A stretch of DNA of 64,000 nucleotides from positions 1 to 64,000 of the forward strand of contig NZ_RQYW01000011.1 of assembly GCF_003932895.1 (NCBI RefSeq), read 5' to 3'. A model generated the notes under the pieces. It searched no databases. It had not been told where the DNA came from and saw only the letters and a list, made by a program, of their open reading frames with translations. Both the position numbers and the translations under genes were made by a program. Below are positions 6,043 to 59,074 of the stretch, piece by piece (positions within the stretch are counted from its first letter, which is position 1; every line of letters begins with the position of its first letter). The stretch is from Leptotrichia sp. OH3620_COT-345. Its GTDB lineage: Bacteria > Fusobacteriota > Fusobacteriia > Fusobacteriales > Leptotrichiaceae.

Positions 6043-6385
6043 CTTCTTCATCCTCTTCTATCTCAAAGTATTCAAGAAATACAGTTTCACAGAAGTTCTC
6101 AAAAGTGACTGGAATTTCTTTATTATCCTGTGCAAGTGGAACTATATAACAGTTAAGGAAGTCATTATTTATATTTTTATTGTCATCTTCCAGCATAAAC
6201 CAGCCCAATGGTCTTCCACAGATAAGTTTTTCATTTTCAAGTAATATTTCTCCGTCTTCGTCCATTATGTCAACGTAAATACGATCATTAGTCTTAAAAT
6301 GCTTTATTCTAAGTAAATAAATTTCACTACCGCTTTTAAATGTAAAGACATAAGGTATTTTGTTTTTATCTATTTCTATTCTCAT
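6032..6385 (-). CDS. phage baseplate-region protein, unknown
   Basis: About 117 residues, beginning MRIEIDKNKIPYVF at the ATG at 6385, which overlaps the upstream stop as ATGA. It is beta-rich with an acidic C-terminus (EIEEDEEDVE). Proteins of this size between the Dit-like and hub genes occur in many myoviruses of Firmicutes and Fusobacteria and are presumed baseplate parts. I recognise no named family with confidence. Confidence 0.75.
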   Translation of the reverse strand: MRIEIDKNKIPYVFTFKSGSEIYLLRIKHFKTNDRIYVDIMDEDGEILLENEKLICGRPLGWFMLEDDNKNINNDFLNCYIVPLAQDNKEIPVTFENFCETVFLEYFEIEEDEEDVE

Positions 6386-26519: not shown

Positions 26520-27225
26520 TCTTGCCTCCTCGTTTTTTATTTTCTATCCATTCAGGCTCTGCCGTCTTCCAGTTATATAAGTCCATGTATTCCAAAGCTT
26601 CTTTTAAAGCAACTTCATCACTAAAATTTTTTAACAACAATTTAATAGGACCCGTTGTTTTTACACTATCTTTTATTTTCCTCCTATATCGGACGAATTC
26701 AAACAGAAGATTTTTATATTCTTCAGTTTTATCTTGTGAATTTATAAAATCCTCAATTTCTTTTTTGGTATTTTTTTCTTTAGTATATTCAATATTTAGT
26801 ATTATTCTTTCTTTAGTAGTATTCTTTCTTTTATATACATCGGGATTTTCCCGATTTGGGTTTTCCCGATTTGGGTTTTCCCGATTTGGGTTTTCCCGAT
26901 TTGGGTTTTGACTTTCTTTTTTAGAAAAATCAATTACATCATTTTCTTCTATATCTTCAAAAACAAAATAATCTACCGTTCCGTCAGAATGCCGTATTCT
27001 GCTTATATATCCCGCTTCTATTAACTCTTTTATCCCCGAATACACAGAATCTAACCCGTCTTTTGAATTTTTTGCTATCTCTTTAGGATTATAATTCCAA
27101 TCTTCAGGCTTTGATAACATATAAAGCATTATTCCTTTAGCTTTTAAAGATATGTTATCATCATTTATTAATTTGTTATGTATGGTTGTAAAATTTGTTT
27201 TTTTATTTACTGTTTTTTTAGCCAC
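26443..27225 (-). CDS. replication initiator with N-terminal winged helix and iteron-coded repeat
   Basis: About 260 residues. The N-terminus (KTNFTTIHNKLINDDNISLK, AKGIMLYMLSKPEDWNYNP, SVYSGIKELIEAGYI) is the winged-helix domain of phage replisome organisers/O-like initiators. A repeat of NPNRE (about residues 107-126) is encoded by four exact 15-bp units. The C-terminal half (LLKNFSDEVALKEALEYMDLYNW) would contact the loader. The GTG at 27225 is preferred because AAGAGG lies upstream. Confidence 0.87.
   Translation of the reverse strand: MAKKTVNKKTNFTTIHNKLINDDNISLKAKGIMLYMLSKPEDWNYNPKEIAKNSKDGLDSVYSGIKELIEAGYISRIRHSDGTVDYFVFEDIEENDVIDFSKKESQNPNRENPNRENPNRENPNRENPDVYKRKNTTKERIILNIEYTKEKNTKKEIEDFINSQDKTEEYKNLLFEFVRYRRKIKDSVKTTGPIKLLLKNFSDEVALKEALEYMDLYNWKTAEPEWIENKKRGGKNGNSNNVGNGKKQTRKPDYNIEADF
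26846..26905. repeat. four exact 15-bp iterons inside the initiator gene
   Basis: The unit TTTTCCCGATTTGGG is repeated four times without change (26846-26860, 26861-26875, 26876-26890, 26891-26905) and followed by a partial unit. Each unit contains a CCC-GATTT-GGG near-dyad. Lambdoid phages carry their origin as iterons inside the O gene, so this is a good candidate for the prophage replication origin. Confidence 0.75.
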
Positions 27226-44103: not shown

Positions 44104-44862
44104 TTATTCTAAACCTTTTCTATACTCATAAGTAAACCTTTTATCATATAGTTTAGATTTCCCGTACTTATTTCCTAAAAAATCTCCGACTAAAATTTAT
44201 GCAGTTTTAGTTATATTTTCTTTTTTTACTTTTTTTTCTATCGTTTCTAAAGTACCTATTACTATTTTCTGGTCAAACCATGTTGCTCTCTGAATTACCG
44301 CTACAGGAGTGGTCATAGGATAATGAACGGACAGAGACTTTACAACTTTGTCTATCATCTGTACCGACAGAAATATCGCCATAGAAGCTCTATGCTGTGT
44401 AAGACTTTCGAGACTTTCCTTTTCAGGTACGGGAGTTCCTCCTTCCATTCTTGTACAAATAACTGTCTGGGAAATATCAGGCAGCGTAAATTCTTTTTTT
44501 ATTATTGCGGCAGAAGCCAAAAATGAGCTTACTCCGGGAATTACTTCATATTCTATTCCATGCTCATCAAGTATGTCCATTTATTCCCTATGCACTCCAT
44601 AAATAGCAAAGTCTCCCGTATGTACTCTCGCAACTTTCTTTCCGGATTTTATTGCAGTAACAGTTACGTCGATCACTTCGTCTAAGGACATTCCCGCAGA
44701 ATTATATATCTCGTCTTCTTCTTTATGACATTCTATAACTTCTTTCGGAACAAGAGAACCTGTATATATTATGACATCCGCTTCTTTTACTATTCTTTGT
44801 CCTTTTATTGTAATGAGTTCCGGATCTCCCGGTCCCGCTCCTGTAAAATACACTTTTCCCAT
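44104..44862 (-). pseudogene. cobM: cobalt-precorrin-4 C11-methyltransferase, two nonsense codons
   Basis: The frame from the ATG at 44862 reads VYFTGAGPGDPELITIKGQR and continues through GSLVPKEVI to YGVHRE, then TAA, where homologues have Gln, then MDILDEHGIEYEVIPGVSSF in the same frame. A second TAA follows NITKTA, after which LVGDFLGNKYGKSKLYDKRF continues. Both are clean in-frame stops, so this is a recent pseudogene. It would have acted in anaerobic cobalamin synthesis (CbiF). Confidence 0.92.
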
Positions 44863-45023
44863 TTTTTCCAAATCCTTTCTGTTATTTTCAGCTTCGTTTT
44901 TTATTGTTTTAATTATTTCAAGCATTATAAAATCTATTATATTACTTTATATAAAAATATTATGTTCGTGGAAAAGGCTTTTGTAAATTTCTGTCTATTT
45001 TATTATATTCCGTTCTCTGTCAT

Positions 45024-45740
45024 TCACAATTTTTTCCATTTTCCAAATCCTGATTTTTTTAAAATTAATGTTGAAAATATGGCACTTCCTGAATTTCTTC
45101 AATATTTGTATAAATCTTTTCATTTTTTTCCGCAATCGGATACAACTACTATATTATTTTTATTTCTCGTTTCTATAAGTACTCTTTTTATTTTATCAAA
45201 GCTTCTGCTTATTTTCATCAAGACAAGATTATCATTATTTTCTATTTCTTTAGAAAAATCCGTTTTTTTATTTACAGATATTATTTTCAAATCTTCATCG
45301 CTTATTATTAAAGGAATGTTCAGCCTGGCAGCTATACTGTTAAATGAACTTATTCCGGCAATAGTTTCCACTTCCACATCATTTTCTATATGCTCAAGAA
45401 TATAAGTATATGTACTATAAGTCATAGGATCTCATATTGTTAGAAAAGCTACATTTTTACCTTCAGAGAGTAATTTATTTATTATGTCCGCATTATTTTT
45501 TCTTGATATTTTCCTTGCTTCCAAGTCTTTTACCATTGGAAATTCAAGAAATATTCGTTCCACATCTTCCTTTACATAATCCATCACTATACTAAAAACC
45601 GTACTTCCCTCTCCACTTTTAGCTTCAGGAAGAATTATCACATCTATGTCATTAAGCTTTTTAAATGCTTTTATCGTCATATTTTCGGGATCTCCGATTC
45701 CTGCCCCTATACCATAAAATTTCCCTTTCTTACTTCTCAT
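45024..45740 (-). pseudogene. cobI: precorrin-2 C20-methyltransferase, nonsense and frameshift
   Basis: The N-terminal half (KFYGIGAGIGDPENMTIKAF) ends at TGA after AFLTI, where homologues have GGA (Gly of GDP). The frame then continues PMTYSTYTYILEHI through IAGISSFNSIAARLNIPL. After VVVSDCGK an extra-base shift in a run of A produces a stop; the other frame continues EKIYTNIEEIQEVPYFSTLI. At least two lesions inactivate it (CbiL/CobI). Confidence 0.9.
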
Positions 45741-46960: not shown

Positions 46961-47408
46961 AGCATCCTTTACTAATATAAATTAGATTTATAGTCGATGT
47001 TCCTTTCTTCCCGAAATTATATTTTTAGGATATATTTTAGTTATTTCAATCTTTCAGAAAAAATACATCTGTAGTTGTATTTTTTAATTCTTCCATTATA
47101 AAATTTAACATTATTCATTTCTCTTTTCTTATAAGACCAGTTAAAATCTTTATAATATTTTTATTGATAAAACGAATAATTTTTTATATATTTAGCTCTT
47201 ATCAATTAGAATTTATAAAAAATTTAAATTTAATGTTTTTATCATTTACAACTTATAGAATTTATAAAAACTAAGATTTATTCTTTAATAACATTAAGAT
47301 TTATTCCCATTTAAGTTTATTTTAAGATTTTTATCTGTTCTAGCCTTAATTAATTTCAATATATGCACTTCAGTCATTTATAAAATTTTAATAACTTAAA
47401 TATTATAA

Positions 47409-50400
47409 TTAAATGCCAACAAAAATTTCCACAATATTCCTTATTTTCTCTAACACTGTTTCTTTTTTCTTTTCTCGTGCACCATGTCTACGTGATGTTG
47501 CAGGAATTATACTGTCTAACTCATCTCCCGCATACTCCACATATCCTTTTCCAATTGCTTTTTCTATAAAACGTTTTGAATTTTCTTTTAATTTTTCTTC
47601 TTCTACCAAATAATTAATTTTATTCATTTTTTCCTTTTTTGCAAAACTATAAAATGTCTCAAGAATATCATCAGTAGTTTTTAATTCCGATAATCTTGTT
47701 TTATTAATAAAATCTATAATTAATTCTTCTTTTGCTCTGGTTCCAAGGCTTGTTCTAATAACTCTACGAACTTCAGCTTTCAAACTGTCCATATCATCAT
47801 TTTCTTTAGATTTTTCAAGAATTAAAGCTAAAATATAGTCCAAATTTATTTCATCTGTTTTTAGCAAATCAATTTGAAATTCAACATCAGAAAAATCAAT
47901 ATTTTCTCCATCTGTTACTTCATTTCGTTTTGAATTTAGAATATTTTCTCTGATATCAACATATACACTTTTCATATCTTGCATTTGTCTGTCAGAAATA
48001 ATTTTTTCAAAATTTTCAAATTCATCAAAATTTCTAAGTATATTTTCTGCTTTTAATACTTCACCAAAAAGCTCTACAAATTCTTTTTTATCTGCTTCAA
48101 GCTCTATTTCAGTCGGTTCCGGAAATTTAGCAATAATTTCATTACATATATCTACATATCCTTTAATTGTTTTCCCGGTTTCTTCATCAGTAAAACCATG
48201 AATATATTCTTCATAACTTTTTTCCAAAATTATATTTACACTGTTTTCATCACCAAAAGTTTTAATTGCATTTTGTGTCGCTTTTTCCAAATCCCTGAAA
48301 CAAACAATATTACCAAAAGTTTTAACCTTATTCAATATACGATTAGTCCTTGAAAAAGCTTGAATAAGACCGTGAAATCTTAAATTTTTATCAACAAATA
48401 AAGTATTTAATGTAGGTGCATCAAAACCGGTTAAAAACATGCCGACAACAATAAGTAAATCAACTTCTTTGTTTTTTACTTTCAATGATAAATTTTTATA
48501 ATAATTTTGAAATTCATTACCATTGATTGAAAAATTTGTTTTAAAGTAATTATTATAATCTTTAATTACCTTAGTTAAAAATTCTTTTGCAGTAGAATCC
48601 ATAGCAGATACATCAAAATTTTCTTCTGATATTTCTCCAATAATTGACTGTTCTTCATTTGCAGTAAAACTGTATATAGTAGCAATTTTTAATCTTTTTT
48701 CTTCTGGCAAGGATTCCTGTTGTTTCTGAAACTCTTCATAATATAGTTTTGCCGCCTCAACACTTTGTACTGCAAACATAGCATTAAAGCCGTTTAATCT
48801 TCTATGCTTTAAATCGTAAAACTCATTTCTATGTGTCTTAGTATCAAAAACTTTTAAAATGTGCTTTGTAATTTCAGTTATACGTTCAGGATGTAAAAGC
48901 ATTTTGCTTTCTAATTTAGCTAATTTTTTTTCATCATCTTCTTTTTCTGCTGACTTAAATTTAGGAGTAATATTATTGTAATCCACCTTAAATTTTAAAA
49001 CTTTTCCATCACGAATAGCATCTGTTATTACATAACTGTGAAGCTGTGCTCCGAATATTCCTGATGTAGTTTCTCCACCAAGAGAGTTTTCCGGGAAAAT
49101 TGGTGTTCCTGTAAAACCAAATTGATAATATTTTTTAAAAGATTTTCTGATATTTTTTTGTGCATCTCCAAATTGTGAACGATGGCATTCATCAAAAATA
49201 AGTACACAATGCTTGTCATAAATTTCATGATTGGAATTTTTCTTTATAAACTCATTCAATTTTTGAATAGTTGTAACTACAATTCTGTTATCATCTTTTT
49301 CAATACATCTTTTAAGTTCTTTTGTATCTTTACTTCCATTCACACTGTCCGGCTGAAATCTTTGATATTCTTTCATAGTTTGATAGTCTAAATCTTTTCT
49401 ATCTACCACAAAAAATACTTTATCTATAAAATTAAGCTCTGTTGCTAATCTTGCAGCTTTAAATGAAGTAAGTGTTTTTCCTGAACCTGTTGTATGCCAA
49501 ATAAAACCACCTGCTTCTGTTTTTCCTGCTTTTTTTGCTTCATAGCTTGAGTTTATCTTCCATAAAATTCTTTCTGTTGCTGCTATTTGATAAGGTCTCA
49601 TAATAAGCAGTATATTATTTACATCAAAAACACAGTATTTTGTAAGTACTTCAAGAATAACACGCTTTTCAAAAAATGTCTTTGTAAAATCTTCTAAATC
49701 ATGAATAACCTTATTTTTAGCATCCGCCCATTCACAAGTAAATTCATAATTATTTTTATTTTGTGCTGTTGTATTTGCAAAATATCTTGTATAAGTGCCA
49801 TTGGAAATAACAAAAATCTGCACATACTTATATAGAGAATTTTCACTATTGAAGCTCTCTTTACTATATCTATGAATTTGATTAAAAGCCTCATGAAGAT
49901 TTACACCTCGTTTTTTTAATTCAATATGAACTAATGGCAATCCATTAACTAAAATTGTTACATCATAGCGATTGTAACTGCTTCCTTTCTGACTAACTTG
50001 ATTTATAACTTGTAAAGAATTATTATGAATATTTTTCTTATCAATAATTTTTATGTTTTTTAAATGTCCGTCATCAAAAATAAAATCATAGATATGATTC
50101 TCTTGGATTTTTCGTGTTTTTTCAATCATACCATCATTTGGAGTATCTAAATATTCCAATAAAAATCTATTCCATTCTTCGGCTGAAAAAGAAATTCCAT
50201 TTAACTTTTCAATTTGTGTCTTTAAATTTGTATATAAATCATCATTAGATTTTACAATAAGTCTCTCATATCCTTGAGAAATTAAATTATCAATCATATT
50301 TCTTTCAAGTTCGGCTTCACTTTGATAAGATGCTTCTCTAATACTGTTGTTTTTTTCAAAGTTTGCTAAAATAATTCCATTGGTCATTTCAGCTATTGTA

Positions 50401-50432
50401 GATGTGGTGTACTGTATTCTTTCTTCTGACAT
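47409..50432 (-). CDS. hsdR: type I restriction enzyme, R subunit
   Basis: The 1007-residue protein has an N-terminal nuclease region (VTILVNGLPLVHIELKKRG, E-x-K), Walker A (WHTTGSGKTLTS), DEAD-box type VLIFDECHRSQFG, and helicase motif regions (YQFGFTGTP, MFLTGFDAPTLNTLFVDK, QAFSRTNRI). It translocates DNA and cuts unmodified targets with HsdM and HsdS. It is the last gene of the operon. Confidence 0.96.
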   Translation of the reverse strand: MSEERIQYTTSTIAEMTNGIILANFEKNNSIREASYQSEAELERNMIDNLISQGYERLIVKSNDDLYTNLKTQIEKLNGISFSAEEWNRFLLEYLDTPNDGMIEKTRKIQENHIYDFIFDDGHLKNIKIIDKKNIHNNSLQVINQVSQKGSSYNRYDVTILVNGLPLVHIELKKRGVNLHEAFNQIHRYSKESFNSENSLYKYVQIFVISNGTYTRYFANTTAQNKNNYEFTCEWADAKNKVIHDLEDFTKTFFEKRVILEVLTKYCVFDVNNILLIMRPYQIAATERILWKINSSYEAKKAGKTEAGGFIWHTTGSGKTLTSFKAARLATELNFIDKVFFVVDRKDLDYQTMKEYQRFQPDSVNGSKDTKELKRCIEKDDNRIVVTTIQKLNEFIKKNSNHEIYDKHCVLIFDECHRSQFGDAQKNIRKSFKKYYQFGFTGTPIFPENSLGGETTSGIFGAQLHSYVITDAIRDGKVLKFKVDYNNITPKFKSAEKEDDEKKLAKLESKMLLHPERITEITKHILKVFDTKTHRNEFYDLKHRRLNGFNAMFAVQSVEAAKLYYEEFQKQQESLPEEKRLKIATIYSFTANEEQSIIGEISEENFDVSAMDSTAKEFLTKVIKDYNNYFKTNFSINGNEFQNYYKNLSLKVKNKEVDLLIVVGMFLTGFDAPTLNTLFVDKNLRFHGLIQAFSRTNRILNKVKTFGNIVCFRDLEKATQNAIKTFGDENSVNIILEKSYEEYIHGFTDEETGKTIKGYVDICNEIIAKFPEPTEIELEADKKEFVELFGEVLKAENILRNFDEFENFEKIISDRQMQDMKSVYVDIRENILNSKRNEVTDGENIDFSDVEFQIDLLKTDEINLDYILALILEKSKENDDMDSLKAEVRRVIRTSLGTRAKEELIIDFINKTRLSELKTTDDILETFYSFAKKEKMNKINYLVEEEKLKENSKRFIEKAIGKGYVEYAGDELDSIIPATSRRHGAREKKKETVLEKIRNIVEIFVGI

Positions 50433-50497
50433 TTAAGTTACTCCTTCCATTTAATATTTTGCATATATTTTAAATTTTTTACAATTTTTCTTATATA

Positions 50498-52342
50498 TTA
50501 ATTATTTTTAGAAAAATCTAATAACTTTTCTCTATAATATTCATATTGTTTTTCTCTTAATTCTATTTCTTTTGGTAACCCCTTTGTTAAATCATTGATT
50601 AAAATATCAAATTTATCTAAGATTTTAGAAACATATTTTTGCACTTCTTTTGAAATAATAGGTACAGGTAAAGATTTTATAATATTTGTGTTAAGATTGC
50701 TAACAGACGAACTATTTATTTTATTTCTCCAGTATTTTTCCACTTTTGAAGAAACTAAATAATAGTATAAAAAATCACTATCTAAAGTATTTTCATAATT
50801 ACTAATTGATGCCCAACCATCATGAATAGCCCCTATTATATCCAAAATATACGGACGACCATAACTCATTGAGTTTGACATTACAAAGTCTCCCTTTTTC
50901 AAAATTCTTGATTTTTTTGCACCCTCTTGAGTTATTTTTTGTTCTGTTTGCTTTATATACTTAGAATTTTTAGAAACATCACCTATTTTTATCCAAGGTA
51001 TCCCTTCATGACTATCAGTTAAATATTTATTTATAGGTCTTGGAGAGGCTCCTCTTGTAATTATTGATACTTCTCCCAATGTTTTCCATTCAACTTTATT
51101 AAATAATTCAACCTCCACAATCGCCGCAGCCTCTTTTAAAATACTAAAGAACTTAGTATCTATTATAAGGCAGGCAGGCAGGCAGGCAGGCAGGCTACCA
51201 TATTTTTCATCAAATGTCAAGAGTTTTTCTCTATAAAATTCATATTGTTTTTGTCTTTGTTCAATTTCTTGTGGCAATAAACCTTGTGTATCAGAAAGCA
51301 AAGATTGGAATTTATCTAAAATTTCTACAACTTTATTTTGAATTAAAATTGGTGGCAAATATAATTTTATATTTTTAACCATATCAGTTGTCAATGATGG
51401 TATACCAGTATGTATATGATTAATTTTGCTATTTTGCAAAAAATAATATAAATATTTAATGGCAATATCTTGTTTAGGTAATAGACAAAGCAATCTGACA
51501 ATTGGATAGTATGGTTCTTCTCTCAAGCATACATAACCTATTGTACCTCTTGCTGAAACTGTTACACTTGGCTTATCTACCCTAATTTGATTTGTGTATC
51601 CATATAATGCCTTTTCAGCGATACCATTGCTATAAATAGGAATAGAGAACTCTTTTGTTTTTGTCTTAGAAAAATTATTCTTAGGTACATCTCCCCCCAC
51701 CATTATATCTACTATTTCTCCAAGTGTAACTATCCTTAATTCATATTTTTTATCTTCCAATCTATCTAATTTTTTACTCAATTTATTTAAATTTTCTTCA
51801 CTCAAAAGCATATCTCTATAATAAGAATACTGTTTAGTACGAGCTTGTAATTCAGCTTGTAATTCAGTAACATAATTTGTAAATTTGTCAAGTATTTTTA
51901 CAATTTTTTCTTGAGTTTCTATGCTAGGGATTGGAATTTCCAAACTTTCTAAAGTTGTTTTTGAAATACTTGGAATCCCTGCTCCCTCTTTTTTATCTTG
52001 AAGTTTTTCTTGATTCATTTTCAAAAAATGATAAATGTATCTATTCAAAACTGTATCTTTAGGATTTATAGCAAATGCATGTGCCCCTAACCAAAATTTA
52101 TTTTCTATAAAATTTATAAACCCCGCTGAAGCTCCCCCCTGTGAAATAGTTATAGTATTGGCACTTTGATTATACACTTCTACATATCCAGAAGGAGTAA
52201 TTCCTCCATTTATAACAGGATATTTACCATCTTCCAACATATCCCTTTTGTTAAATTGTTTTCCTTTAACAATATCACAAACTTCCCCCAACTTTTTCCA
52301 CTCAACTTTTTCATTTTTTATCATATCCATTATTTTAGACAT
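50498..52342 (-). CDS. hsdS: type I specificity subunit with three target domains
   Basis: From the ATG at 52342 (GGAG upstream) about 614 residues. Three target-recognition domains begin at WKKLGEVCDIVKGKQF, LRIVTLGEIVDIMVGG and VEWKTLGEVSIITRG. Each is followed by a conserved helical spacer (LQARTKQYSYYRD, EQRQKQYEFYREKLL, ELREKQYEYYREKLL). Normal HsdS has two. The tract coding LPACLPACL lies between the second and third. The protein reads through in the present state. Start 52414 is unlikely because it overlaps rhuM. Confidence 0.92.
   Translation of the reverse strand: MSKIMDMIKNEKVEWKKLGEVCDIVKGKQFNKRDMLEDGKYPVINGGITPSGYVEVYNQSANTITISQGGASAGFINFIENKFWLGAHAFAINPKDTVLNRYIYHFLKMNQEKLQDKKEGAGIPSISKTTLESLEIPIPSIETQEKIVKILDKFTNYVTELQAELQARTKQYSYYRDMLLSEENLNKLSKKLDRLEDKKYELRIVTLGEIVDIMVGGDVPKNNFSKTKTKEFSIPIYSNGIAEKALYGYTNQIRVDKPSVTVSARGTIGYVCLREEPYYPIVRLLCLLPKQDIAIKYLYYFLQNSKINHIHTGIPSLTTDMVKNIKLYLPPILIQNKVVEILDKFQSLLSDTQGLLPQEIEQRQKQYEFYREKLLTFDEKYGSLPACLPACLIIDTKFFSILKEAAAIVEVELFNKVEWKTLGEVSIITRGASPRPINKYLTDSHEGIPWIKIGDVSKNSKYIKQTEQKITQEGAKKSRILKKGDFVMSNSMSYGRPYILDIIGAIHDGWASISNYENTLDSDFLYYYLVSSKVEKYWRNKINSSSVSNLNTNIIKSLPVPIISKEVQKYVSKILDKFDILINDLTKGLPKEIELREKQYEYYREKLLDFSKNN
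51169..51195. repeat. GGCA tetranucleotide tract in hsdS
   Basis: Six full GGCA units plus GGC (27 bases) lie in an AT-rich gene. Because the unit is not a multiple of three, slipped-strand changes alter the reading frame after the second target domain. Confidence 0.93.
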
Positions 52343-52376
52343 TCTTATTTGCTCCTTTAATTTTTGATTAAAGTTT

Positions 52377-53387
52377 TTATTTTTTCTTACTATTTTCTTT
52401 TGCAATTCTTTCAATATTTTTAATTTCTTCTAAATAATCTCTTTCTACTTGGGTTAAATTTTTTTCTCTGAATTTTTTATATTCACTTTTAACTTTTTCT
52501 GACATCTCTTGATTTGTAATTTTACCATTCCCTTGTAAAATATCTTCTCCAACAGCTTTTAAGATTTTATCAACATGTTCTACCCAATCTTTCATGTACA
52601 TAACAATTTCTTTTTCTGCTTGTCTTTCCGCAAATTCTAAATAACCAGAAACTAAATTATTTAAACTTTTTAATTCTTTTTCATTTAAATAGTTTTTTGC
52701 TATTTTTGCTTCTTTTAAAGTTGGAAGCTCTCCTTTAAAAGTTTTAAGCCCCATAAAATCCTTTTCACTATTTACACGATTATATACAAGTTCACTTGCA
52801 GTATTATGATGAATTGCATAGTGCATTTTATTTTGCACAGTTGCAAAAAAATATTTTGCTTCATCACTATTTTTATTATAATCTATACTTGTTGCAAATA
52901 AATCTAAAACCTGTCTATAAAAAACTTTTTCACTTGAACGAATATCACGAATACGCTCTAGTAATTCTTTAAAATACTTTCCTCCACCATTTTCTTTTAA
53001 TCTTTCATCATCCATAGCAAAGCCTTTTATTAAGTATTCTTTTAAAACTGTGCTTGCATAATTTCTAAATTGCATTCCTCTTGGTGAACGAACACGATAA
53101 CCTATTGCTAATATCATATCTAAGTTATAAAATTTTATTTTATTAGTTTGTGTTTTCCCCATTATTGCACCATGTTGAGTGGTATGCAACTGATAGTTGC
53201 ATACCACTTTTTCTTCTAATTCTCCATCTTCAAGTATTGTTTTTATATGCTTAGTTATATTTTGTCTTGTTGTTTGAAAAAGTTCTGCTATTTCCAATTG
53301 ACTAAGCCAAATTGTTCCATCAAGTAAATGAAGTTCTACTCTGCTATTTCCATCTTCTGTATTATATATAATAATATCATTTTTCAT
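52377..53387 (-). CDS. RhuM-family protein
   Basis: The 336-residue protein matches the RhuM family: IWLSQLEIAELFQTTRQNIT (HTH), FYNLDMILAIGYRVRSPRG, FRNYASTVLKEYLIKGFAMD. RhuM genes are commonly embedded in type I restriction loci; their function is unclear, but DNA binding is likely. It touches hsdM (one-base overlap). Confidence 0.93.
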   Translation of the reverse strand: MKNDIIIYNTEDGNSRVELHLLDGTIWLSQLEIAELFQTTRQNITKHIKTILEDGELEEKVVCNYQLHTTQHGAIMGKTQTNKIKFYNLDMILAIGYRVRSPRGMQFRNYASTVLKEYLIKGFAMDDERLKENGGGKYFKELLERIRDIRSSEKVFYRQVLDLFATSIDYNKNSDEAKYFFATVQNKMHYAIHHNTASELVYNRVNSEKDFMGLKTFKGELPTLKEAKIAKNYLNEKELKSLNNLVSGYLEFAERQAEKEIVMYMKDWVEHVDKILKAVGEDILQGNGKITNQEMSEKVKSEYKKFREKNLTQVERDYLEEIKNIERIAKENSKKK

Positions 53388-54961
53388 CAGCTTAACTCCT
53401 TTACTATCTCATTAATAGAAGCTCTTAGTTCATTAATTCTTAAAACAGTTTCTTCAATCTCCTTATTTAATTTTACTATATCAATTATTTCCCTTGTATC
53501 TTCTTTTTCTACATAAGTTGATACGGATAAGTTATAATCATTCTCTTCAATTTCTGATTTATCTACATATCTTGAGAAGTATTCTTTATCAGTTCTATTT
53601 CTAAATTCCTCAACTATTGCATTTATATTTTTTTCTTCTAAGATATTATTATTTGTTTCTTTCTTAAACTCCTTACTTGCATCTATAAATAAAACTTTAT
53701 TTTCTGTTTTATTCTTTGCCATTACTAAAATACAAGTTGCTATTGATGTTCCAAAAAATAAATTCTCTGGTAACTGAATAACACAATCAACAAAGTTATT
53801 TTCAACTAAATATTTACGAATCGTTTGTTCTGCTCCCTTACGATAAAAAATTCCAGGAAAACATACAATTGCTGCTCTCCCTTTGCTTGATAAATAACTA
53901 AGTGAGTGCATTATAAAAGCATAATCAGCATAAGATTTAGGGGCTAATTTTCCTGCCGGAGCAAATCTTTCATCATTAATAAGAGTTGGATCAGCATCTC
54001 CTACCCATTTTATTGAGTACGGAGGATTAGAAACAATTGCATCAAAAGGCTTTTCATCTTTGTGTAATGGATTAATTAAAGTATCTCCTCTTTTAATTGA
54101 AAAATTATTATAATTTACATTGTGTAAGAACATATTCATACGAGCTAAGTTAAAGTTGGTCATATTAATTTCTTGTCCAAAAAAACCTTCATCTATAATA
54201 TGTTCATCAAATTGTTTTTTCATTTGTAGGAGCAAAGAACCACTTCCACATGTAGGGTCATATACTTTGTTAATACTTGTTTTTCCATCCATAACAAGCC
54301 TTGCCAAAAGCTTTGATACAGTTTGTGGAGTAAAAAATTCTCCTCCTGATTTACCTGCATTACTTGCATAATTTGAAATCAAATATTCGTAAGCATCACC
54401 GAAAGCATCAATATCATTATTCTTAAAATTTCCAAAGTTGATTTCCGCTATTCCTGTTAATATATCAGTTAGTCTTCTGTTCTTTTCTGCTACTGTTGCA
54501 CCTAAACGATTACTGGTTGTATCGATATCTTCAAATAAACCTTTTATATCATCTTCAGAAGCAAAACCGATAGCACTTCCCTCAATTGCTTTAAATATAT
54601 TTGCCAAATCAGTATTTAGATTCTCATTTTCCTTGGCATCTTTTACAACTCTCTCAAAAAGTTGACTTGGCAAAATGAAAAAACCTTTCTCTTCCACTGT
54701 ACTTGATCTGAAATCTATTTCAGCTTCTTCATCAGAAATTTTTGCATAATCAAAGTCTGTATATCCTGCTTCATGTTCAGCAGAATTAAAAAATTCAGTC
54801 ATATTTTCTGATATAAATCTATAAAAAAGAATTCCTAATATGTACTGTTTGAAATCCCATCCATCAACTGCTCCACGAACATCATCGGCAATTGCCCAAA
54901 TTTTTCTATGGAGCTCTGCTCTTTGATTTATTCCATTATTTTCTTTCAAGTTGTCAGCCAT
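53387..54961 (-). CDS. hsdM: type I DNA methyltransferase, M subunit
   Basis: The 524-residue N6-adenine methyltransferase has an N-terminal helical domain ([20 protein letters not shown]), SAM motif [13 protein letters not shown], and catalytic [13 protein letters not shown] (NPPY). [14 protein letters not shown] precedes the SAM domain. It forms the modification complex with HsdS. It is the first gene of the operon. Confidence 0.96.
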
Positions 54962-55110
54962 TTTTTCCTCACTTTATAAATTTTTATTAAGTCTTTAATA
55001 TTTCTTATTTTCATTTTTTCTAGATATTATCTAAAATATCATAGTTAAAAAATATTTGATAAAGTTAATTTCTTTTTTATTGTAACAATAAAGATGAAAT
55101 TAAAATATTT

Positions 55111-55818
55111 TTATATTTCATAAAAAATTTGTTTATAAAAATTATACCAATTCGTGTTCCAATTTTTTTCTAAACATAAATTATATAAGTCTTCTTCATT
55201 TTGTATACCCTTTTCTGTTATTAACTCATGAGTCTTTTTATTAATAATAAGTCCATTGTCAAGCTCAAGTTGTAAGTCCGGATACAAAGCTACACTTCTT
55301 ATATGAGAAAATTCGGCAGTTTGAATTTTTAAATTCATACCTGTTAATTCATCAGTCACAATACTATATTTTTTTATTCTTTGATTTTTTAACTTATTTC
55401 TTTTATAAGTAAGATCTTCAAAGTATCTCGCTCTCATTACTTCAGCCTTATCAGAGTCTCTTATTAAAAGATACAGTTTTTCAGAATACCTTATATAGTC
55501 TCTTCTACGAAAAGTTGTAGCTGAATCAAAAATAATAGAAAGTAAAGAAATAAATTCTGCTCCAGTAATATATTCAGTACCAGTTCTATTAATTGTAGCA
55601 AGATAATATTTAACTAAATCTTTTTTTACGCGTAACAAAGTATGCAAATATTTATTACTAATCCATATAATACCTTGTCCGTCAAGTTTTGTTCCATTAA
55701 TCCAAGCATTTTGTATAGCAGTAGCCCAATTATCATTTAGTTCTCCATAGTCAGTTCCTCTTATATCTCCCTGCAAATCCTTAATTGAAATTAAATTTTT
55801 AGAAAGTGCATATTTCAT
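55111..55818 (-). CDS. HNH-like nuclease of a two-gene module
   Basis: The 235-residue protein ends in an HNH-like region: IVTDELTGMNLKIQTAEFSH, then LELDNGLIINKKTHELIT (H...N...H). The usual zinc Cys pairs are missing. The N-terminal 150 residues are helical and include a TRTGTEYI/FDSATTFRRRDYIRY region I do not recognise. It begins directly after the stop of the J-like gene, so they form one operon. A restriction-like or defence role is inferred from the island position. Confidence 0.68.
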   Translation of the reverse strand: MKYALSKNLISIKDLQGDIRGTDYGELNDNWATAIQNAWINGTKLDGQGIIWISNKYLHTLLRVKKDLVKYYLATINRTGTEYITGAEFISLLSIIFDSATTFRRRDYIRYSEKLYLLIRDSDKAEVMRARYFEDLTYKRNKLKNQRIKKYSIVTDELTGMNLKIQTAEFSHIRSVALYPDLQLELDNGLIINKKTHELITEKGIQNEEDLYNLCLEKNWNTNWYNFYKQIFYEI

Positions 55819-56382
55819 CTAAATCATCCCTTTATACAACTTTTCCAATGCTTGCATAGCTTCAGTTGCTTTTGAATGCTTACATCTATCAGGATGAATA
55901 AGTTTTACCATTTCTTTACGCCATTTTTCCGCTATTTTTTTATCACGATAGTAATCATAAGTTATTCCTAAAAAATCAAGTTGTAATTTCCCTTCAAGCT
56001 CCACTAAATAAAATATATACTTAGAAATTTCATCTTTAAAATACAGATCTTCTTGTTTATTCAATAAATTTTTATTAGTAATATATTTATCAAATAAGTT
56101 TTGCCATGAATTAGCAGTAACTTTTTTATTTAAAATTTCAGATAATTTTTCTTTTGCTTCTTTTAAAGTTGAAAAACTATTTTTCAATTTTTCAACAGAA
56201 TCAATCATATTAATATCTGTTATTTCTTCTTTTATTAATATGTACTTATCGTATAAAACTTGCCATGAATTAGCAGTAACTTTTTTATTTAAAATTTTAG
56301 CTATTTCCTCTTTAGCATTTTTTAAACTTTTAAAAGTAATTTTTAAAAGCTCAACAGAATTAATTTTAGTAATATCTAACAT
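55819..56382 (-). CDS. J-like protein with duplicated N-terminal motif
   Basis: About 187 residues from the ATG at 56382. The first part has two copies of a helical unit ending NKKVTANSWQxLxDKYI. The last 75 residues are a J-like domain (FLGITYDYYRDKKIAEKWRK, LIHPDRCKHSKATEAMQALE) with the HPD motif. It is very similar to the prophage protein at 34128-34361. It may recruit DnaK to the HNH-like partner. Confidence 0.75.
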   Translation of the reverse strand: MLDITKINSVELLKITFKSLKNAKEEIAKILNKKVTANSWQVLYDKYILIKEEITDINMIDSVEKLKNSFSTLKEAKEKLSEILNKKVTANSWQNLFDKYITNKNLLNKQEDLYFKDEISKYIFYLVELEGKLQLDFLGITYDYYRDKKIAEKWRKEMVKLIHPDRCKHSKATEAMQALEKLYKGMI

Positions 56383-56499
56383 ATACATTCCTTTCAAATA
56401 ATATAATTTATTTTTTATTTCCTTTATATTCATGTGTAAAATTTTTATCGTATAATCTTAACTTTTCATATTCATTTATCCAAAATCTCCAACTAGGAT

Positions 56500-56830
56500 T
56501 TAGGCTGTTTTATTAATTCCCACTTTTTTTACTTTTTATTCAATATTTTCAAGAATTACTAAAACTATTTTTTGACCTTCTTAACTTACTTTTTATACGA
56601 CTATCACAAGTTTTAACATGAGTAAGATAAGAAGTTGAAAGTGTTTTCACAAACTTGTCTATCATATATACAGGTAGAAATATTATCATTGAGGTTTTAC
56701 TAAACTTTCTTTGGAACCAATGAACCTGCATAGATAATAACATCAGCTTCCTTTGATATTTTTTGTACCTTTATTATAATTAATTCACGGTCTTCGGGAT
56801 CTGATCATATAAAATTTTTCTCTTCCAAAT
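56500..56830 (-). pseudogene. second, heavily decayed cobM copy
   Basis: Fragments align with cobM: EADVIIYAGSLVPK and, after a deletion, TSMIIFLPVYMIDKFVKTLS (intact copy: SMAIFLSVQMIDKVVKSLS). Many stops and shifts occur. It lies between the J/HNH module and a VOC gene. Confidence 0.72.
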
Positions 56831-57927: not shown

Positions 57928-58494
57928 TTATTTTCTTGCAGAGATTACATAAATGGGATTTTCAGCCGTCATCATATTGAAATCTTTCATTTTTCTATTT
58001 TTTGCAATCATTACTTGAGTTATATCCAAATCCCTAAATTCAATTTTTTTTTATACATTCTAACGCCTCAAATGTATTCTCAAGAACTATAAAATTCAGG
58101 ACTATAATTCTGTTATTTTTTAAATTATTATAAGAATATTTTATAATTTCTTCCAAATTTCCTCCCGAACCTCCGACAAAAATTCTGTCAAACATTATTC
58201 CATTAGGTAAATCATAAGGTGCTTTTCCTGAAATTACAGTCATATTTTTTATACCGAATTTTTTCATATTCTGTTTAATAAGGTCGACAGCCTCATTTTT
58301 TGTTCTACCGTATAAATATGACCATTTTTTGCAAACCTTGACATTTCTATACTGACGGAACCTGTGCCACCTCCTATATCAAGACATATATCCGTATCCT
58401 TTATTTCCATTTTAGAAATACTTATCGCCCTTATTTCTTCTTTTGTCATAGGTACTTTAGTCCTTATAAATTCCTCATCTTTTATATGGTACAT
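57928..58494 (-). pseudogene. cbiT: cobalt-precorrin decarboxylase, two frameshifts
   Basis: MYHIKDEEFIRTKVPMTKEE, then SAM motif ICLDIGGGTGSVSIEMSRF, are followed by a shift in a run of A (six where seven would restore the frame) and then MKKFGIKNMTVISGKAPYDL and FDRIFVGGSGGNLEEII. A second shift in nine A leads to IEFRDLDITQVMIAKNRK and an end at 57928. It is CbiT of cobalamin synthesis. Confidence 0.88.
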
Positions 58495-58552
58495 TCCGCC
58501 CCTAATTTTTTCTTTTAAAATAATCTGTTTGACAGGATTTTTTACCTTCAAA

Positions 58553-59074
58553 CTAAAGTTCCGTATTTTCATTTTTTATATTTTCCAATATGTTTTTCAT
58601 TTCCTTATAACTTTTTATAAATACAGTTTTTTCCTCATAATTTTTAACTATACTTTTTATATCCTCAAAATTTTCCTTCTGAAATTTATCTGTCCATTTT
58701 AAAAGTTCCTTTAAAGATTTTAAAGTTTCCTTTTTCCCTTTTTCCATTTTGAATTTTCTTTTTATAAAACGTTTTATAATATTGAACCTGTATATTTTCC
58801 GAGGAAGTTCCAAAATATAAATTATATCTGCCTGCTTAAAACTTTCCATACACCATTTATAATAAACCCCCTCCATTATCCAGATCTTTTCTTTTAAAAT
58901 TTCCTGAAACAGAGTGTTTCTCTTTTCAGTATTTCTTTTTACTCCGTAAATATCGGAACTGTTTTCCCATTGAAGGTTGTCTAACTCAAAATATTTTATT
59001 TTCAGTTTATCCGAAAGCTTTCGGGCAAAATATGTTTTTCCTGTTCCACTTACTCCGATTATACGTATTTTCAT
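58553..59074 (-). CDS. P-loop kinase-like protein (topology-modulation type)
   Basis: The 173-residue protein has Walker A IIGVSGTGKTYFARKLS and a shikimate-kinase-like lid (FNIIKRFIKRKFKMEKGKKE). The pattern DNLQWENSSDIYGVKR is typical of FlaR/AAA topology-modulation proteins, better regarded as small-molecule kinases. Substrate unknown. Confidence 0.82.
   Translation of the reverse strand: MKIRIIGVSGTGKTYFARKLSDKLKIKYFELDNLQWENSSDIYGVKRNTEKRNTLFQEILKEKIWIMEGVYYKWCMESFKQADIIYILELPRKIYRFNIIKRFIKRKFKMEKGKKETLKSLKELLKWTDKFQKENFEDIKSIVKNYEEKTVFIKSYKEMKNILENIKNENTEL

Follow-up and report, generated by a model that had tools for sequence, protein, structure and literature searches.

A frame-shifting tetranucleotide tract between the second and third target domains of a Type I specificity subunit in Leptotrichia sp. 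OH3620_COT-345

In the stretch of Leptotrichia sp. OH3620_COT-345 DNA analyzed here, 64,000 nucleotides in all and called the window below, we noticed a Type I operon on the minus strand with the gene order hsdM, RhuM-family gene, hsdS, and hsdR. The genes for all three subunits, HsdM, HsdS, and HsdR, are present, as in EcoR124-like Type I restriction-modification systems. The RhuM-family gene belongs to a PADLOC candidate defence group (PDC-S05); it is found in some of the switch-bearing relatives described below and is missing from others. The features of the operon, in the direction of transcription, are as follows.

53387 to 54961, minus strand: hsdM, methyltransferase subunit (N6_Mtase, TIGR00497 hsdM)
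52377 to 53387, minus strand: RhuM-family gene between hsdM and hsdS (PF13310, PADLOC PDC-S05)
50498 to 52342, minus strand: hsdS, an ORF with an ATG start at 52342, 614 aa in the present state
51196 to 52342, minus strand: halves one and two of HsdS, about 382 codons, last residues before the tract ...YREKLLTFDEKYG
51842 to 52312, minus strand: Methylase_S match 1, TRD1 and the start of CR1
51257 to 51733, minus strand: Methylase_S match 2, TRD2 and CR2
51168 to 51195, minus strand: (GCCT)x7 in the sense direction, (AGGC)x7 on the plus strand, 28 nt, the proposed slippage switch
50498 to 51167, minus strand: linker helix (IIDTKFFSILKEAA...) and third half (TRD3 and a CR2-like coil)
50561 to 51091, minus strand: Methylase_S match 3, TRD3
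47409 to 50432, minus strand: hsdR, restriction subunit, downstream of hsdS (HSDR_N, EcoR124_C, TIGR00348)

In its present state, HsdS has the layout TRD1-CR1-TRD2-CR2-(tract)-linker-TRD3-CR3, with TRD standing for a target recognition domain and CR for a coil. The first two halves, with two TRDs and a central and a C-terminal coil, have the form of an EcoR124-like HsdS, and the present frame adds a third half; EcoR124 HsdS (7BST) is also the nearest solved relative. A sequence-only reading of this DNA had placed a phase-variable repeat between target domains two and three, and the three Pfam Methylase_S matches along the 614-aa ORF flank the tract accordingly. The same reading gave the run as GGCA x6 plus GGC at 51169-51195; the run exists, but those limits fall one base short of 51168-51195. 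CR1 contains a 12-bp in-frame repeat of its own (51842 to 51867, minus strand), which encodes TELQ/AELQ units and varies from about one to three copies across relatives. Because comparable units set the spacer length in EcoR124, the window hsdS may hold a second adjustable element.

With our script's cut-offs, the (GCCT)7 tract located between halves two and three is the sole short tandem repeat with a unit longer than 1 bp in the 64-kb window, and no other run of (GCCT)4 or more occurs in the 2.5-Mb genome. It has 24 matched bases, versus a maximum of 12 for comparable runs across 30 simulated windows. A repeat that shifts the frame inside a coding sequence is one mark of an SSR phase-variable gene, or contingency locus, and the tract is of this kind. 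We translated the gene conceptually with 0 to 11 units and obtained the three-domain frame at n = 1, 4, 7, and 10; only at such lengths is the third half in frame. The products have 614 aa at n = 7, 610 aa at n = 4, and 618 aa at n = 10, so the present frame does run through all three domains, as had been claimed. Loss or gain of one unit was expected to shift the frame and leave a two-domain HsdS, and this is what translation gave (391 aa at n = 6 and 397 aa at n = 8, with 393 aa at n = 5 and 395 aa at n = 9). All lengths from 2 to 11 outside the three-domain frame yield 387 to 401 aa, with a stop at most 4 codons past the tract in both shifted frames. The short product consists of the two halves up to ...YREKLLTFDEKYG plus the repeat peptide, and its end point matches that of an ordinary two-domain HsdS.

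Other repeats and damaged genes were noticed elsewhere in the window. At 26846-26909, a perfect 15-bp tandem array (TTTTCCCGATTTGGG x4.3) adjoins a degenerate 17-bp array; the frame would be kept if the 15-bp array is coding. The ORF at 55819-56433, whose match to a DnaJ domain is weak and falls below the Pfam cut-off, carries two 138-nt direct repeats that lie 159 nt apart, are 79% identical, and encode KVTANSWQ... units. Cobalamin-synthesis-like genes at 44197-44925, 45120-45740, and 58264-58572 are apparently broken, two methyltransferase genes by in-frame stops and a cbiT-like gene by a frameshift, as a result of either pathway decay or sequence errors. A search for inverted repeats over 47300-56500 returned three pairs, all of 19 to 21 nt, AT-rich, and 3.8 to 8 kb apart. 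None lies within hsdS, and a switch by inversion or recombination of the SpnIII type was rejected for lack of such a pair.

To see how widely this arrangement occurs, we searched 60 related genomes at the protein level and then scanned named genomes, with each species represented by one genome. In several Leptotrichiaceae and Fusobacteriales among the 60 genomes, a third half comes after an HsdS with two TRDs. In total, 33 distinct loci share the layout of hsdM, two-domain hsdS, third half, and hsdR, namely, the window, 10 other Fusobacteriota loci, and 22 loci from the named-genome scan. The last group is mostly from Firmicutes, including several species of Peptoniphilus as well as Gemella, Eggerthia, Helcococcus, Lachnoanaerobaculum, Gemmiger, and Faecalicatena, with one Saccharibacteria metagenome-assembled genome (MAG) in addition.

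The loci were chosen by protein similarity, regardless of the presence of a repeat, and a repeat was then defined as a unit of 2 to 9 bp with at least 10 matched bases no more than 150 nt past the coil. Such a repeat follows the second coil in 29 of the 33 loci, with the tract starting 4 to 38 nt past the conserved coil. The same test was positive in 0 of 30 cases after the first coil, 0 of 33 after the third coil, and 1 of 40 at the ends of two-domain hsdS genes. A Fisher test of second-coil junctions versus control positions gives p of about 4e-24, a value that calls for caution, as some of the loci have common ancestry. The sole positive two-domain gene is that of Faecalibacterium longum (locus L108), with GAACG x15 at the hsdS end (6196-6270) and a contig break inside the tract, so that a third half may follow here too; such tracts may break short-read assemblies and thereby hide third halves. 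The four loci outside the pattern have short remnants or no tract, and in one of them (G004) the third half is also broken.

The units at the junction are diverse (GCCT, AC, AG, AGAC, AGCAC, AGAAC, ACACG, TAACA, GCACGCC, and others), and their length is 2, 4, 5, or 7 bp in all 29 loci and a multiple of 3 bp in none. In Fusobacteriota alone, we found (AC)12 in the window's own genus and (AGCAC)8, (AGAAC)17, (AGCAC)28, an interrupted AGCAC tract, (ACACG)9, (TAACA)5, and GCCT with n = 6 in others. In 28 of the 29 loci, a stop lies no more than 8 codons from the tract in each of the two shifted frames, versus 37% of background positions. Twelve of the repeat-bearing loci are fused and 17 unfused, which is compatible with one third being fused (p = 0.43). 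The GCCT tract with n = 6 belongs to G071, a member of Fusobacteriales from a family other than that of the window. Its protein ends in SLPACLPAL*, exactly as predicted for a window tract of n = 6, so the GCCT tract occurs in natural length variants across related genomes (n = 7 in the window and n = 6 in G071). The claim that the tract toggles between two and three target domains is thus strongly supported by the junction repeats in 29 of 33 comparable loci. The anatomy of the gene, its frames, and the occurrence of both states among relatives are direct observations on these sequences.

The third half resembles a second half. CR2 and CR3 are 63% identical, compared with 39% for CR1 and CR2 and 40% for CR1 and CR3, and the best Protein Data Bank match of the third half is to residues 200 to 398 of EcoR124 HsdS, that is, to its second half. 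TRD3 sequences recur as TRD1 or TRD2 in ordinary HsdS proteins: the window TRD3 aligns over 147 aa, at 70% identity, with TRD2 of a Neopusillimonas maritima HsdS that has two domains, and between two Leptotrichia the TRD3 of one and the TRD1 of the other show 81% identity. From the likeness of the coils, the EcoR124 match, and the exchange of TRDs, the third half appears to be a C-terminal-type half whose recognition domain works and can be exchanged. An AlphaFold model has three TRD-like domains with long helices after each, a disordered repeat peptide, and a short helix leading to TRD3. Its local fold is good and Foldseek matched it to HsdS structures, but at a pTM of 0.42 the overall packing is uncertain and the model gives no conclusion on the pairing of the halves. 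Type I gene matches were also found in phage and plasmid collections, where the plasmid ones among the matches listed were mostly HsdS of two-domain length.

Taken together, we propose that this is an EcoR124-like Type I operon with a slippage-driven specificity switch built into hsdS, using TRD1 and TRD2 when unfused and adding or substituting TRD3 pairings when fused, and we give this reading a probability of about 0.78. Slippage in the (GCCT)n tract would set the end point of HsdS. In two of three frames, translation would stop within a few codons of half two and give a normal HsdS with TRD1 and TRD2; in the third frame, which is the present state, it would continue across the SLPACLPACL repeat peptide, then a short helix, and on through the third half to give a three-TRD HsdS. 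Because coil three resembles coil two, half three probably either vies with half two for pairing to half one or forms a pair with half two. In the fused state, methylation and restriction would accordingly occur at TRD1/TRD3 sites, TRD2/TRD3 sites, or both, in addition to the TRD1/TRD2 site or in its place. The precedents of NgoAV and JHP1422, discussed below, make a changed motif in the fused state likely, by addition or replacement, and in this way the bacterium can probably change at random which DNA sites are methylated and defended. We infer slippage in vivo, the changed motif, and any effects on phage resistance or gene expression from this arrangement.

The third half could also hinder the enzyme instead of changing it. 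The tract would then switch activity and not specificity, on with two domains and off with three because the third half blocks HsdS assembly or function. The M2S complex accommodates only two TRDs, and many phase-variable systems of Types I and III are plain on/off switches, as with hsdM in Haemophilus influenzae. We nevertheless consider this unlikely, since turning the enzyme off does not require an intact third TRD, but the reading frame of the third half has stayed open in 17 of 17 unfused repeat-bearing loci; moreover, TRD3 is exchanged with working TRDs, the third coil is conserved, and the three-TRD JHP1422 is active. A little less probable still is that the unfused third half is translated from an internal start as a separate subunit that dimerizes or swaps with the main HsdS, with the tract tuning fused versus separate forms. 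Half subunits can act as dimers (the NgoAV short form and H. pylori TRD3 alone), and the window has a GTG 16 codons past the tract with a 4-nt Shine-Dalgarno-like match. However, a start with a ribosome-site match of at least 4 nt in the first 50 codons was found in only 3 of 34 loci, at differing positions, and several loci lack any start codon in that region. As a general rule, independent translation of the third half was rejected because starts with ribosome-site matches are not conserved.

The position of hsdR invites another explanation, in which the early stop would leave about 730 nt untranslated ahead of hsdR and lower HsdR by polarity, so that the tract tunes restriction versus modification. 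In the window, the third half is immediately followed by hsdR, which is downstream on the same strand in all related loci. We regard an effect of this kind as improbable, because it leaves the retention of a complete, exchangeable TRD and coil unexplained and because hsdR lies at least 1 kb further on in several relatives. Least credible is a neutral relic or an assembly error, that is, a fused duplicate half plus a chance repeat. The broken cobalamin genes elsewhere in the window would fit such an account; against it stand repeats of many different units at one specific position in 29 of 33 loci, never a multiple of 3 bp, and their presence in complete genomes, such as that of Leptotrichia hongkongensis. 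As a general account, it was refuted by the comparative test.

Returning to the specificity switch, its spread appears to involve horizontal transfer. The window HsdM is 84 to 91% identical to the HsdM of several Firmicutes, with 87 to 91% for Peptoniphilus, Gemella, and Eggerthia (loci L052, L053, L055, L058, L060, L090, and L093), which suggests that the whole operon recently moved between phyla. Not every locus counts as an independent case, since many of them carry one and the same operon spread by horizontal transfer, but the differences between their repeat units suggest that the tract arose more than once. The junction unit varies from case to case within this operon, so the tract is replaced faster than its surroundings, and strong selection for the design is indicated by the unrelated units that recur at one spot across Fusobacteriota, Firmicutes, and one Saccharibacteria MAG. 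We tentatively suggest, at somewhat less than even odds, that these loci form a horizontally spread Type I class in host-associated anaerobes, with a third-half switch whose unit is replaced repeatedly at a fixed spot. Operons of this class would go from one motif to further or different ones (TRD1/TRD3 and TRD2/TRD3), and back, with no recombination and with the base enzyme kept. Phase-variable methylation usually works on/off or by allele shuffling; here, the default enzyme seems to be retained in every state, with slippage adding or dropping a third target domain. If so, the methylation motifs of strains of Leptotrichia, Peptoniphilus, Gemella, and others should vary with the length of one tract, with consequences for how these bacteria resist phages and take up DNA.

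Both hsdS genes switched by repeats and HsdS proteins with three TRDs are already known. A REBASE survey (Atack et al. 2020, FASEB J 34:1038) found, as cited in later papers, that 7.9% of hsdS genes have frame-shifting repeats, and the window hsdS is like those genes in having a repeat able to shift the frame. One later paper cites the same survey for three-TRD HsdS, so the survey may already list a two/three-domain junction. Our literature search, which covered papers citing this survey but not the survey itself, found none that describes switching between two and three domains at a junction conserved in several phyla. A report on BlihIA of Bacillus licheniformis and a Staphylococcus xylosus system (PMC12429846), as read here, describes operons with a full HsdS plus an extra half-like HsdS, similar to the layout here, but as separate full-length and truncated subunits, not joined by a repeat. 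EcoR124I/II, the closest solved HsdS, share the subunit set and likewise have a central coil with short spacer repeats that keep the frame; unlike the window HsdS, they have two TRDs only and are without a frame-shifting tract.

The two closest precedents each share one side of the proposed switch. In H. pylori, JHP1422/JHP1423 (M.Hpy99XV) has a three-TRD HsdS and methylates two motifs, with the TRD1/TRD3 and TRD2/TRD3 pairs each functional (PMC3936762, PMC3077401). Like it, the window has one HsdS with three TRDs; however, TRD2 of JHP1422 equals TRD3, from repeat-mediated duplication, whereas the three window TRDs differ, and no frame-shifting tract has been described between TRD2 and TRD3 of JHP1422, where the window's third TRD is switched. 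In NgoAV of Neisseria gonorrhoeae, fusion of hsdS1 and hsdS2 at a polyG tract changes the motif from GCAN8TGC to GCAN7STCA (PMC9577141). As in NgoAV, a slippage tract ending an upstream hsdS part decides whether that part is fused to a second, TRD-bearing part downstream. NgoAV, however, alternates between one and two TRDs by a G run and the window between two and three by a tetranucleotide repeat, and the short form of the window is not a single-TRD protein but a complete HsdS with two TRDs.
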